A stretch of DNA of 64,000 nt, from NCBI RefSeq assembly GCF_000219535.2, contig NZ_CP007806.1, forward strand, positions 3,506,501 to 3,570,500, written 5' to 3'. Position numbers and translations under genes: made by a program. Under the pieces are notes generated by a model. It made no database searches, had not been told where the DNA came from, and saw nothing but the letters and a program-made list of their open reading frames with translations. This DNA is from Brevibacillus laterosporus LMG 15441 (GTDB lineage: Bacteria; Bacillota; Bacilli; Brevibacillales; Brevibacillaceae). Positions 29,727 to 32,371 of this stretch are shown here, piece by piece. Every line of letters begins with the position of its first letter. Position 1 is the stretch's first letter.

Positions 29727-30116
29727 ATGTCGACATTTGGTCAACGATTACAAAAATCTAGAAAAAAAGCAAAATTAACGCAGGAACAAGTGGCCAATAA
29801 ACTCGGACTTGACTACTCCACTATCTCCAAATATGAGAATGATCACTCGCAACCCGATAATGATACTCTTATTTCGCTAGCAGATTTATATTGGGTTACT
29901 GTAGATTATCTACTCGGTCGATCAGTCGAACAATCTGATCACGATCTCTCTTTAGTGGATGCATACCTGCCTAAGGAAAAATTAGAAAAATTAACTCCAA
30001 AACAAATGGAAAAGATTAATGATTTTTTGTCTTTACCTGAAGACATTCAGATGAATATTGGTACAATGATTGAAGCCGCTGTCGAAATCGTAAAAGACAA
30101 AAATCGTCCTGATTAG
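29727..30116 (+). CDS. XRE-family transcriptional regulator
   Basis: A 129-residue regulator with an N-terminal Cro/CI HTH (LTQEQVANKLGLDYSTISKY, residues 17-36), then DTLISLADLYWVTVDYLLGR, the SinR/Xre-type dimer edge, and a helical tail of 60 residues. It is preceded by three or four TTGAA-N5-TTCAA dyads, one on its own promoter. Immediately beyond it lie a convergent 55-codon gene and the Agr-like operon, so it may control that island. It resembles immunity repressors such as ImmR, but no integrase is adjacent. Confidence 0.82.
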   Translation: MSTFGQRLQKSRKKAKLTQEQVANKLGLDYSTISKYENDHSQPDNDTLISLADLYWVTVDYLLGRSVEQSDHDLSLVDAYLPKEKLEKLTPKQMEKINDFLSLPEDIQMNIGTMIEAAVEIVKDKNRPD

Positions 30117-30280
30117 TAATCGAACTGATTATGGCGTTTTTTCGCATCTTCAATGATTTTCTCTATAAAACAAATAATGGAATTTATACTATAGTCTTTA
30201 TTTTCGATTAAGTAGAGTTCGGCTAATTCAACGGCTTTCATTTTGGTATAATCTGTGAGTTGTACCGCTTTTATCTCCAT
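30113..30280 (-). CDS. Small protein (55 aa), unknown
   Basis: A 55-codon gene starting at the ATG at 30280 behind AGGTG and ending inside the last codon of the convergent XRE gene. The product is soluble and helical (MEIKAVQLTDYTKMKAVELA) with a Lys/His-rich end. Not recognised. The 3' overlap with the XRE gene means the two transcripts are partly antisense. Confidence 0.5.
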   Translation of the reverse strand: MEIKAVQLTDYTKMKAVELAELYLIENKDYSINSIICFIEKIIEDAKKRHNQFDY

Positions 30281-30431
30281 TTTTTTCACCTACTTTAAAA
30301 TTCTTTGCATATAAAAATTTATCATTAAATTATAGAATTTTTTGTCGAAAAATGAAGATAAAGCCTGTCTGTTTTACCCCCTTCAATTTTTCTTTACATT
30401 CAAAAAAAACTGATGTATAATTTTATCCCAA

Positions 30432-30472
30432 AAAAAGAGTCACCCAGTTAATCTGGATGACTCTTTCTTTTT
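30432..30472. terminator. Bidirectional terminator after the LytTR gene
   Basis: AAAGAGTCACCCAG-TTAAT-CTGGATGACTCTTT is flanked by A-rich sequence on the left and TCTTTTT on the right. On the minus strand it ends the Agr-like operon. Confidence 0.8.
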
Positions 30473-30822
30473 AGATGTTTAACTAATTCATACTTAGACC
30501 TAGAAACTGTTGTATAAGAACCGTCACCGAAGTAAGCCCTGATGAACAATGCATTCTCCACTACATATGTAATATTTTCGAGATTGACAACATTTACAGC
30601 ATCTAAAGAAACAAATCCATACTTCCCCCAAGATGCCCGAATTCCTTCTAATGTAGTCACTGCAAGAAATACACCTTTATTTGTATGGAAGCGTAAAATG
30701 CTGTCTGAATTCTTTTTTGGTCTAAAGAGATCTACATAATTGACCTCTTCTACTCCAAATTCAATAAAATCTGACTCATCGTACTTTCTTTCGATTCTAA
30801 TCCCTGTTAGCCTAGGTTTCAT
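30448..30822 (-). CDS. Stand-alone LytTR DNA-binding regulator of the Agr-like operon
   Basis: A 124-residue protein with a LytTR beta-fold in its last 100 residues (FHTNKGVFLAVTTLEGIRAS; FVSLDAVNVVNLENITYVV; YTTVSRSKYELVKHLKRK). There is no receiver domain, so it cannot be phosphorylated as AgrA is. Its ATG overlaps the AgrD-like stop (ATGA). Stand-alone LytTR proteins paired with membrane proteins (HdrRM, BrsRM) are held inactive at the membrane; by analogy the sensor at 31467 may control this one. It is the last gene of a four-gene overlapping operon. Confidence 0.8.
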   Translation of the reverse strand: MKPRLTGIRIERKYDESDFIEFGVEEVNYVDLFRPKKNSDSILRFHTNKGVFLAVTTLEGIRASWGKYGFVSLDAVNVVNLENITYVVENALFIRAYFGDGSYTTVSRSKYELVKHLKRKSHPD

Positions 30823-30953
30823 TTTGCTTCACTTTGCTTTTTTAGTTCTTCTGGCACGGCTGGACTACCGATAGCAGCTTTGAAAGAAACAGCAAAAGCT
30901 CTAGCTACAGCGGTAAGCATAATCGATGTAGTTTCTGCGATATGTTTTTTCAT
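30819..30953 (-). CDS. agrD: AgrD-like autoinducer precursor without cysteine
   Basis: A 44-residue peptide precursor whose ATG overlaps the AgrB stop (ATGA), with GGGAGGTGAG as ribosome site. It has an amphipathic N-terminal helix (MKKHIAETTSIMLTAVARAF), a short core (AVSFKAAIGSP) and an acidic AgrD-type tail PAVPEELKKQ, the part that AgrB recognises. No Cys is present; Ser23 or Ser30 could form a lactone, as known for serine-type AgrD peptides, or the signal may be linear. The tail and the neighbours identify it; the mature product is unknown. Confidence 0.75.
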   Translation of the reverse strand: MKKHIAETTSIMLTAVARAFAVSFKAAIGSPAVPEELKKQSEAK

Positions 30954-31474
30954 TTTATACTCACCTCCCTTCTTGGAATCAAAAGTAATGATTGAACAAA
31001 GAATGCTAGTGCTACTATGGGAGAAACGATAACAAAATTTATACTTACAATCAAAACAGAACATAATTTTAAAATCAGAACTTTTCGAGGTACGGTTAGG
31101 TTTTCATATGTACTATTAGGTGCATAAATAAGCACTAGAAGAACACTAATAGCTGTTAATAGATATATGATAATATTGTTTACAGGAATATATGGTATCA
31201 CTGCAATAATAACTGTCGTAACAATTACACAGTGATCTAAGGATTTCATATGATATCCACCTGAAAAAAAACGTAATATCACAAAAGTCATCAACGCAAT
31301 AAAGATTTCCTGTAACCTATTTGTTAAAAGACCTATTAGGAGTAAAAAGAAACAAATAAAAAAGAAATTAAGCAAAATAGAAAGAGCGTAAGATAATACA
31401 GCTATGCTATTGGTACGCTCTGGGCTTGCATTTTTTATTTTGATAGAAATCGCTTTCGATAGTTTCTCAATCAA
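30950..31474 (-). CDS. agrB: AgrB-like peptide-processing membrane protease
   Basis: A 174-residue AgrB-family membrane cysteine endopeptidase with about five hydrophobic segments. The catalytic pair is present with the family spacing: His75 and Cys82 in FFSGGYHMKSLDHC. It would remove the C-terminal tail of the AgrD-like peptide and form the ring. It overlaps the sensor-like gene by eight bases and the peptide gene by the ATGA motif, so all are translationally coupled. Confidence 0.9.
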   Translation of the reverse strand: MIEKLSKAISIKIKNASPERTNSIAVLSYALSILLNFFFICFFLLLIGLLTNRLQEIFIALMTFVILRFFSGGYHMKSLDHCVIVTTVIIAVIPYIPVNNIIIYLLTAISVLLVLIYAPNSTYENLTVPRKVLILKLCSVLIVSINFVIVSPIVALAFFVQSLLLIPRREVSIK

Positions 31475-32138
31475 TAATCTTGTCCCTCCTAATTAACCAC
31501 CGAAGTAACAATAAAAGAGGGGCTAGAATAGGCAATATCAACAGCCATACATCACCTTTAAAAATAAAAATCCAGTATGTAGTAGTAGAAATAGTTATAA
31601 TCCCTAACACCAATCCACAAATGATTCTTATCTTTAATGAGTCCAATTTTCCTTTTTGATATAAATCGTGAGGAGGTTGCATTATAAAGGAAAACCCAAA
31701 ATTAAACATACCAATAAGCCAGCCTATCACCAAAACAGTTACATCAGTAATTAGCTGTATTAGAAAGGTCCCCCACTCTACAAGACTTTTACCATCACTT
31801 AGTGTCACTAGACCAAAAGATATAAGAACAGGATATATAACAAATTGTATACCTAGATAACTTAGATACCCAATAGCGGCAATTAAAGCTGATTCATAAA
31901 TTCTTATCTTAAATAAAAGTCTAAAAAACACCACAATTAAAACAAATTGCGCTCCAACATCACTTCCGTTCACCTCTAAGACAATCCTATTGACAAAGGA
32001 CGTAATGGAGAGTGCTGTAGCCATTATGGTGAAATCCCTCAAATACATTGTTACTGGTAACCTAAATGCTTTGAAGGTTAAAAATAAAATGGTAAAAGAA
32101 TCAATAAATCCAAACAATACGTATAAAAAACTTTTCAT
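31467..32138 (-). CDS. AgrC-like membrane sensor lacking a histidine kinase domain
   Basis: A 223-residue protein with about seven transmembrane segments (near 5-25, 34-54, 62-80, 82-105, 122-148, 168-190 and 193-213) and nothing after them except RRDKIID. This is the size and topology of an AgrC sensor domain, but the whole DHp/HATPase kinase part is absent, and no kinase gene is nearby. First gene of the operon, overlapping agrB. It may bind the processed peptide and release or hold the LytTR protein. A role in peptide export is an alternative. Confidence 0.65.
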   Translation of the reverse strand: MKSFLYVLFGFIDSFTILFLTFKAFRLPVTMYLRDFTIMATALSITSFVNRIVLEVNGSDVGAQFVLIVVFFRLLFKIRIYESALIAAIGYLSYLGIQFVIYPVLISFGLVTLSDGKSLVEWGTFLIQLITDVTVLVIGWLIGMFNFGFSFIMQPPHDLYQKGKLDSLKIRIICGLVLGIITISTTTYWIFIFKGDVWLLILPILAPLLLLLRWLIRRDKIID

Positions 32139-32259
32139 AATATATCCCCTATTTAGCCAAGATCAAAACGATGTAGGTGCTCCGTATTCACGACCATACA
32201 ATAAACTATCTCATAAAGAATGTAGCTCGCTCATAACTTCATGGTGAAAAATGATCTCC

Positions 32260-32371
32260 TCGCTTCATCAGCTCAAGGGAGGTTTTGTATTTTTGACAAA
32301 AAAAAATCAAGGCTAAAAAGAACAATACAAAAATGAACATCAAAGACAACGTCTGAAGTACCTCTGCGAAC
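32260..32371 (-). pseudogene. Possible type I toxin-like peptide without a proper start
   Basis: On the minus strand a frame reads FAEVLQTLSLMFIFVLFFLA and ends KPPLS, much like the holin-like toxin at 8532 (FQALTLMISF). A strong ribosome site GGGAGGTGAG lies upstream, but it is followed by ATA and no ATG in frame; the first ATG is internal, giving 23 residues. A TATAAT at 32439-32444 could be its promoter. Probably a decayed or non-canonically started type I toxin. Confidence 0.42.

Follow-up and report, generated by a model that had tools for sequence, protein, structure and literature searches.

Two kinds of described system come closest to the operon reported here. The Agr system of Staphylococcus and Listeria (agrBDCA) shares with it the His/Cys pair of AgrB, a PxxPxEL-like tail on AgrD, a multi-helix sensor and LytTR-type DNA binding; among the autoinducing peptides (AIPs), AIP-I is described as a 16-membered thiolactone (PMC4979651). 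The LytTR regulatory systems, as defined in PMC6193735, which gives the signals of HdrRM and BrsRM as unknown, likewise combine, within an operon, a solo LytTR protein and a membrane protein that has no enzyme domain. We analyzed a stretch of 64,000 nucleotides from Brevibacillus laterosporus LMG 15441 (NZ_CP007806.1, positions 3,506,501–3,570,500; hereafter the window), in which four overlapping minus-strand genes encode an AgrC-like sensor, AgrB, AgrD and a LytTR protein. Unlike Agr, this set has no kinase and no receiver, and its class of AgrD lacks Ser or Cys at the ring position. Unlike HdrRM and BrsRM as presented in PMC6193735, its membrane protein resembles the AgrC sensor and not DUF3021 or DUF2154, AgrBD is present, the LytTR gene is last and the sensor gene first, and the hallmark promoter repeats were not convincingly enriched. 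Given that the set contains neither kinase nor receiver, which suggests direct signaling from sensor to LytTR, we propose that the operon is probably a complete peptide-signaling device without two-component chemistry, whose sensor reads the peptide of its own AgrD and acts directly on the LytTR protein. In favor of this are the conservation of the set (84 of 89 distinct loci of the window's type), the match between an AgrD Lys and a sensor Asp, two loci that keep only the sensor and LytTR genes (L089 and L090) and copies in phages.

The list of open reading frames (ORFs) in the window gives transcription in the order sensor, AgrB, AgrD, LytTR, with the genes overlapping on one strand exactly as an initial annotation of this DNA had stated. 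The features on which the argument depends are as follows.

31467-32138, minus strand: kinase-less AgrC-like sensor, 223 aa (ORF and structure model)
30950-31474, minus strand: AgrB, 174 aa, TTG start, 8 bp overlap with the sensor gene
30819-30953, minus strand: AgrD precursor, Lys-type, 44 aa, 4 bp overlap with agrB
30448-30822, minus strand: solo LytTR DNA-binding protein, 124 aa, without a receiver domain, 4 bp overlap with agrD
31959-31961, minus strand: codon of sensor Asp60, at the predicted extracellular start of helix 3
30870-30881, minus strand: predicted signal core Lys-Ala-Ala-Ile, directly before the predicted AgrB cut (between KAAI and GSPAVPEEL), its position taken from the fixed spacing to PxxPxEL

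The AgrD frame in the ORF list is 81 aa long and begins at an upstream ATG at 31064; we adopted the ATG at 30953, because a Shine-Dalgarno-like stretch precedes it and the resulting length equals that of relatives. AgrB matched Pfam PF04647 at 67.3 bits (cut-off 23) and was the one AgrB match in the whole genome. Its His75 and Cys82 (H71 and C78 in the trimmed alignment), which we take from S. aureus AgrB to be the active-site pair, were conserved in 139/139 AgrBs compared. AgrD had no Pfam match, adjoins AgrB and carries the PxxP tail.

Precursors in related loci were called with a rule blind to positions -4 and -5, with positions numbered backward from the second Pro of PxxPxEL. The cut position in this numbering follows the five-residue ring rule of the Ser/Cys class described below, and the Listeria CFMFV precursor continues with the same spacing to its second Pro. 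A downstream AgrD was called for 165 of 178 AgrB ORFs, giving 117 distinct 26-residue cores. Lys stood at -4 in 78 of these, the window's included (Phe at -5, Lys at -4), and Ser or Cys at -5 without Lys(-4) in 39, while none had neither. Only 2/78 Lys-type AgrDs also had Ser/Cys at -5, the other 76 lacking it. The sample thus holds two AgrD classes, of which the Lys-type one nearly always lacks the ring-forming Ser or Cys; this is a new finding, and the absence of such a residue from the window's core had been missed initially. Lys(-4) is the sole invariant position of the Lys-class core, a class defined by this residue itself, and the other positions from -7 to -1 had entropies of 2.2–3.1 bits. 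The 13 AgrB ORFs without a call were read by hand as 6 Lys-type, 5 Ser-type and 2 lacking an AgrD (L193 and, in L179, a second ORF that is spurious). An earlier scoring, which favored Lys(-4)/Ser(-5) candidates and gave 91 Lys and 50 Ser/Cys of 141, was superseded by the blind rule. On the AgrB tree, the distribution of Lys and Ser/Cys types needed 2 changes.

Related stretches were taken around part of the database matches, plus phage, plasmid and named-contig copies; as most loci were chosen from the best-ranking matches, the shares of the types differ from those in nature. After removal of identical AgrBs, 141 remained, divided into 89 Lys-type, 50 Ser/Cys-type and 2 unassigned, in a sampling that favored the Lys type. 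When the four-gene set was sought across these relatives, as the initial annotation had proposed, a sensor of <=350 aa (the longest being 311) upstream and a LytTR protein of <170 aa downstream accompanied AgrB and AgrD in 84/89 distinct Lys-type loci. The exceptions were a double-length LytTR (L101), a sensor with no LytTR detected (L167, L179 and L180) and neither (L183). We ruled out a remnant or chance arrangement on the strength of this conservation. Ser/Cys-type loci had the same set in 30/50 cases, plus three found by hand (L176, L186 and L194). The other 17/50 comprised a receiver-LytTR protein in L025, a doubtful LytTR in L093, AgrC-shaped proteins in L091, L092, L095 and L096, and 11 loci without a detected LytTR, among them L085, L185 and L190. 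A sensor and LytTR gene pair, with no AgrB or AgrD nearby, was seen at L089:5542-6600 and in the matching stretch of L090 (genomes G373 and G301). By eye, the region around residue 60 in these two sensors resembles that of the Ser/Cys class, and both genomes have AgrBD loci elsewhere (L057, L058 and L080). This arrangement fits a functional sensor-LytTR pair, and these may possibly be eavesdropper receivers.

The sensor was found in 8/39 genomes of the window's family, with a 99% identical copy in G030, and its profile had matches in 38/398 genomes of the class, in 9/145 genera. In a second family, the Lys-type AgrB profile matched 239/394 genomes at E 1e-18, a count that includes both AgrD types; of 22 named loci obtained with this profile, 19 were from Paenibacillus, 2 from B. 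laterosporus and 1 from ‘Bacillus sp.’ Carriers of the set include Brevibacillus, Paenibacillus, plasmids and phages. Among 398 genomes sampled from the phylum, 30 had an AgrB match; at 26 loci inspected there were 20 AgrD candidates, with Lys(-4) in 0/20, so that this sample gave no Lys-type AgrD outside the two families. Three of these 20 were irregular, with Ser/Cys at -6 in L226 and L231 and none at -5 in L243, so that the -5 rule is not universal.

The two AgrD classes were matched by a difference in their sensors. Residue 60 was Asp in 88/88 sensors partnering Lys-type AgrDs and in 0/49 partnering Ser/Cys-type AgrDs (137 sensors); in the latter it was Ala, Ser, Val, Ile, Met or Phe in 49/49. 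It was the best class-separating column of the sensor (the next best differed by 0.77 between the classes, and the best AgrB column reached 0.88). The seven-helix model and the loop charges, by the positive-inside rule, predict that residue 60 lies outside and the C-terminus inside. In a sensor tree built without residue 60, the two types needed 1 change. As this is a single joint supported switch, it represents co-conservation and not repeated evolution; a sign test is powerless here, and what carries the argument is that neither residue has changed across long divergence. The co-conservation fits a sensor that serves as receptor for the peptide of its own AgrD.

In the mechanism that we propose, AgrB would cut AgrD and release a short peptide with Lys-Ala-Ala-Ile at its C-terminus, or something derived from that peptide, as the AgrB active site and the AgrD motif suggest. 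The seven-helix sensor would be the peptide receptor, with Asp60 on its outer face meeting the invariant Lys, as their co-conservation points to. By analogy with HdrRM and BrsRM, the sensor may then relay the signal by capturing the LytTR protein at the membrane or letting it go, and the free LytTR protein would regulate target genes, with the sign of regulation and the targets likewise conjectural. If this is true, Agr peptide signaling can run without two-component phosphorylation, and the LytTR-inhibitor type of system gains a defined ligand. The Lys-type AgrD, present at 89/141 distinct AgrB loci in a sample that favored it, predicts unusual peptide chemistry and a peptide-receptor contact that could be swapped by mutation.

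The Lys residue could act in either of two ways within this mechanism. AgrB may merely hydrolyze the precursor, leaving a linear peptide whose free Lys would pair with Asp60 of the sensor in a salt bridge; we give this form somewhat less than an even chance. It is suggested by the complete separation of the two sensor classes at residue 60 and by Lys being the one position that does not vary in the core. Linear AIPs, however, are usually poor AgrC ligands, and a hydrolyzed peptide leaves the matching ring size described next as a coincidence. More tentatively, but still a real possibility, the amine of Lys(-4) would resolve the AgrB acyl-enzyme on the C-terminal residue of the peptide and close a 16-membered lactam. 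By arithmetic, 7 Lys atoms plus 9 from three further residues give the same ring size as 4 atoms of Cys or Ser plus 12 from four. Lys(-4) persists throughout its class amid variable neighbors, no AgrD among the 117 lacks both Lys and Ser/Cys, and 76/78 of the Lys type have no Ser/Cys at -5 for a conventional ring. Synthetic lactam analogs of the Listeria AIP are active according to PMC11297923, but lactam analogs of S. aureus AIP are given there as ~1000-fold less potent. The Listeria AIP CFMFV has the five-residue ring core of our Ser/Cys class, yet it is a thiolactone, and the lactams described with it are synthetic side-chain analogs or homodetic rings from rearrangement (PMC4916163, PMC11297923). 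No natural lactam AIP was found in the literature searched (mostly outside subscription journals). Moreover, the cut site is itself a prediction, and an invariant receptor Asp60 is a better fit for a free Lys, which is charged, than for an uncharged amide. We also considered Ser at position +2 relative to the cut as an alternative nucleophile but rejected it as not general, as Ala or Asn stands there in 8/78. Locus L163 has tandem agr sets, one AgrD of which has both Cys(-5) and Lys(-4) (CKLTL), making it a natural test case for the ring chemistry.

The structure model of the sensor (pLDDT 87.6) consists of seven long helices (residues 2-24, 30-53, 60-76, 80-108, 122-144, 167-192 and 197-222), and the polypeptide stops at the seventh, with no domain beyond. 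This bears out the initial view that only the seven-helix sensor part is present and the kinase absent. The sensor had no Pfam match, no PDB match by sequence and no fold match at E 0.001, transporters included. Its profile aligned to residues ~4-213 of AgrC-shaped proteins of 406–416 aa (L092, L095 and L096) and to residues 45-252 of the one in L091; those of L095 and L096 are encoded together with AgrB, AgrD and a receiver-LytTR protein. Pfam found no kinase domain in the C-terminal halves of the four proteins, and we dropped the idea that they are true kinases. The label ‘AgrC-like’ therefore rests on length, context and these 406–416 aa intermediates.

A role for the sensor as an immunity or export partner of an antimicrobial peptide made by AgrBD, with LytTR regulating the operon independently, is compatible with everything found here, yet we consider it very improbable. 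Similarity links the sensor to the N-terminal region of AgrC-shaped proteins, it had no significant PDB transporter match by sequence or fold, and the matching of Lys with Asp60 suits recognition. Sensor homologs that are ordinary transporters, which would speak against a receptor, did not appear among the sequence or fold matches, and the sensor as a transporter was set aside, although the absence of a match is weak evidence.

Neither a kinase nor a receiver domain was found in the four operon proteins, the rest of the 64 kb window not having been searched for kinases. In relatives, we searched loci flanked by 3.5 kb or more on each side, using ten query domains taken from these loci, with which remote kinases could be missed. 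Under these terms a kinase-like gene was present at 0/29 and a receiver at 1/29 Lys-type loci, and at 4/31 and 4/31 Ser/Cys-type loci, respectively. Kinase or receiver partners, named beforehand as evidence that would count against the proposal, do occur at the edges of the group: receivers in L020, L024 and L025, a GHKL protein in L024 and AgrC-shaped proteins in L095 and L096. These genes, together with the AgrC-shaped relatives of L091 and L092, are what a hidden two-component system would draw on, in which a kinase is encoded elsewhere, or a host AgrA-like regulator is fed, and the solo LytTR protein is accessory. We regard this as improbable in view of the counts around the 29 Lys-type loci, and the only other LytTR match in the window's genome lies in a LytTR and DUF3021 pair. 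The GHKL protein (L024:2666-3499; HATPase_c_5, 47.7 bits) has two apparent membrane helices and, by eye, no evident H-box His; a shorter related protein occupies the same place in L021–L023, its copy in L022 having no Pfam kinase match.

The LytTR protein scored 22.5 bits with Pfam LytTR, just below the cut-off of 22.6, and had no other Pfam domain. Its family profile matched the LytTR structures 3d6w and AgrA 4xqj/3bs1 at E 4e-4 to 6e-4; two BURRH repeat-protein matches ranked above them, but no BURRH stretch passed on its own. In a structure model (pLDDT 88.6), the nine best Foldseek matches were all LytTR proteins, with TM-scores of just 0.36–0.44 and none at E 0.001. At 124 aa and with LytTR as its sole domain, the last gene does encode a LytTR protein without a receiver, as initially described. 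The other LytTR match in the window's genome, with DUF3021, is the textbook LytTR-inhibitor arrangement.

Several observations weigh against direct signaling from a peptide-binding sensor to LytTR. The repeats of LytTR systems (two 9-bp repeats with a 21-bp period) were found in 7/88 upstream regions vs 2.4 in shuffles, and these 7 regions had no common sequence, so that the enrichment was not convincing. Similarity of the sensor to L226, an AgrC with recognized kinase domains, was marginal (E 5e-4), with E 0.16 for the Lys-type sensor profile and an hhalign probability of 3.8%. Receiver-LytTR proteins are encoded after the set in L020 and L024 and in place of the solo LytTR in L025, eight Brevibacillus Ser-type loci (L070–L076 and L082) have sensor, AgrB and AgrD with LytTR undetected, and a kinase elsewhere in the genome could still act on the set. 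The trees support a single Lys/Asp60 switch (at most 2), so that the match has no statistical independence, and further columns differ between the two clades, less completely than Asp60. The proposal that an Agr peptide is joined to a LytTR-inhibitor system gained from the conserved set and from Lys/Asp60 but not from promoter repeats. Neither the operon promoter nor the region upstream of sda (see below) gave a consistent signal for direct repeats of the LytTR type, which were rejected; an alignment of sensor promoters showed, among the matches listed, a conserved promoter-like block and nothing assignable to LytTR.

Relatives of AgrB were also found in phages Abouo, Davies and Emery of B. 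laterosporus and Harrison and Paisley of P. larvae (8 records), in 5 Paenibacillus plasmids (of four inspected, L101 and L103 Lys-type, L102 and L104 Ser-type) and on six IMG/VR contigs. The full set was present in 4/4 phages inspected (Abouo, Davies, Emery and Harrison), near integrase or recombinase and XRE repressor genes. In 2014, AgrC homologs without an ATPase domain were reported in phages Davies, Emery and Abouo (PMC3901668), whose cassettes are members of the present set; the passages on these phages are silent on the LytTR gene, on Lys-type AgrDs, on the Asp of the receptor and on the chromosomal families. Phage phiCDHM1 differs, its AgrC being a GHKL protein. The initial statement that no such system had been described therefore stands for the full four-gene set within the literature searched, but not for the kinase-less AgrC homologs of three phages. 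As phages carry copies, a role in phage communication is testable. It is rather doubtful, though conceivable, that the AgrB family makes a third kind of AIP, a 16-membered Lys lactam, that a seven-helix protein with a dedicated Asp signals to a DNA-binding protein without phosphorylation, and that the phage module, which lies beside integrase or recombinase genes and repressor genes, could inform lysis-lysogeny. Tandem kinase-less sensors precede one AgrB at L019:5881-7288 on a chromosome and at L098:3604-5008 and L099:4607-6008 in phages Davies and Emery; the second sensor may hear another peptide.

Two further genes lie 3′ of the operon in the window, neither of them claimed for the mechanism.

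30113-30289, minus strand: small ORF, 58 aa, 3′ of the LytTR gene, no Pfam match
29727-30116, plus strand: XRE repressor-like gene, convergent with the operon

The nearest NCBIfam model to the XRE gene was RstR (69.4 bits, below the cut-off of 80), and XRE genes adjoin the set in phages and Brevibacillus relatives. Small ORFs stand at the place of the 58 aa ORF in L018, L020, L025 and phages Abouo and Davies, a comparison of position and not of homology. G029 has an ortholog of the window operon in the same chromosomal surroundings. From the XRE gene and small ORF as in relatives, and from this synteny, the window copy may once have been a mobile cassette that has since settled. In G029, a transposase-like gene pair (L017:6079-7262; IS3-like by eye) is inserted immediately upstream of the ortholog. 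Upstream of the window's sensor, a short peptide (32239-32349, minus strand) resembles, in shorter form and without a Pfam match, the holin-like toxin ORF upstream of the tandem sensors of L019 (L019:7542-7721, minus strand; PF16935, 41.6 bits, cut-off 23.3).

An Sda-like sporulation inhibitor gene was present 3′ of LytTR in 63/89 Lys-type loci and 0/50 Ser/Cys-type loci, for example at L061:8004-8183 (~230 bases after the LytTR gene) and in L057 (PF08970, 27.0 and 26.6 bits, cut-off 22.6). All 63 loci belong to one Paenibacillus-type AgrB clade with shared surroundings, so that sda could be a target or the association could be synteny only. Most of 61 aligned upstream regions, among the matches listed, shared a conserved leader before sda (L061:7880-8003), containing two inverted repeats (ATTCGC..GCGAAT and AAATGGTACCATTT) and a CAGGAGACGG block. 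No Rfam match was obtained in the four loci searched, and the leader is a possible cis-regulatory RNA of unknown type.

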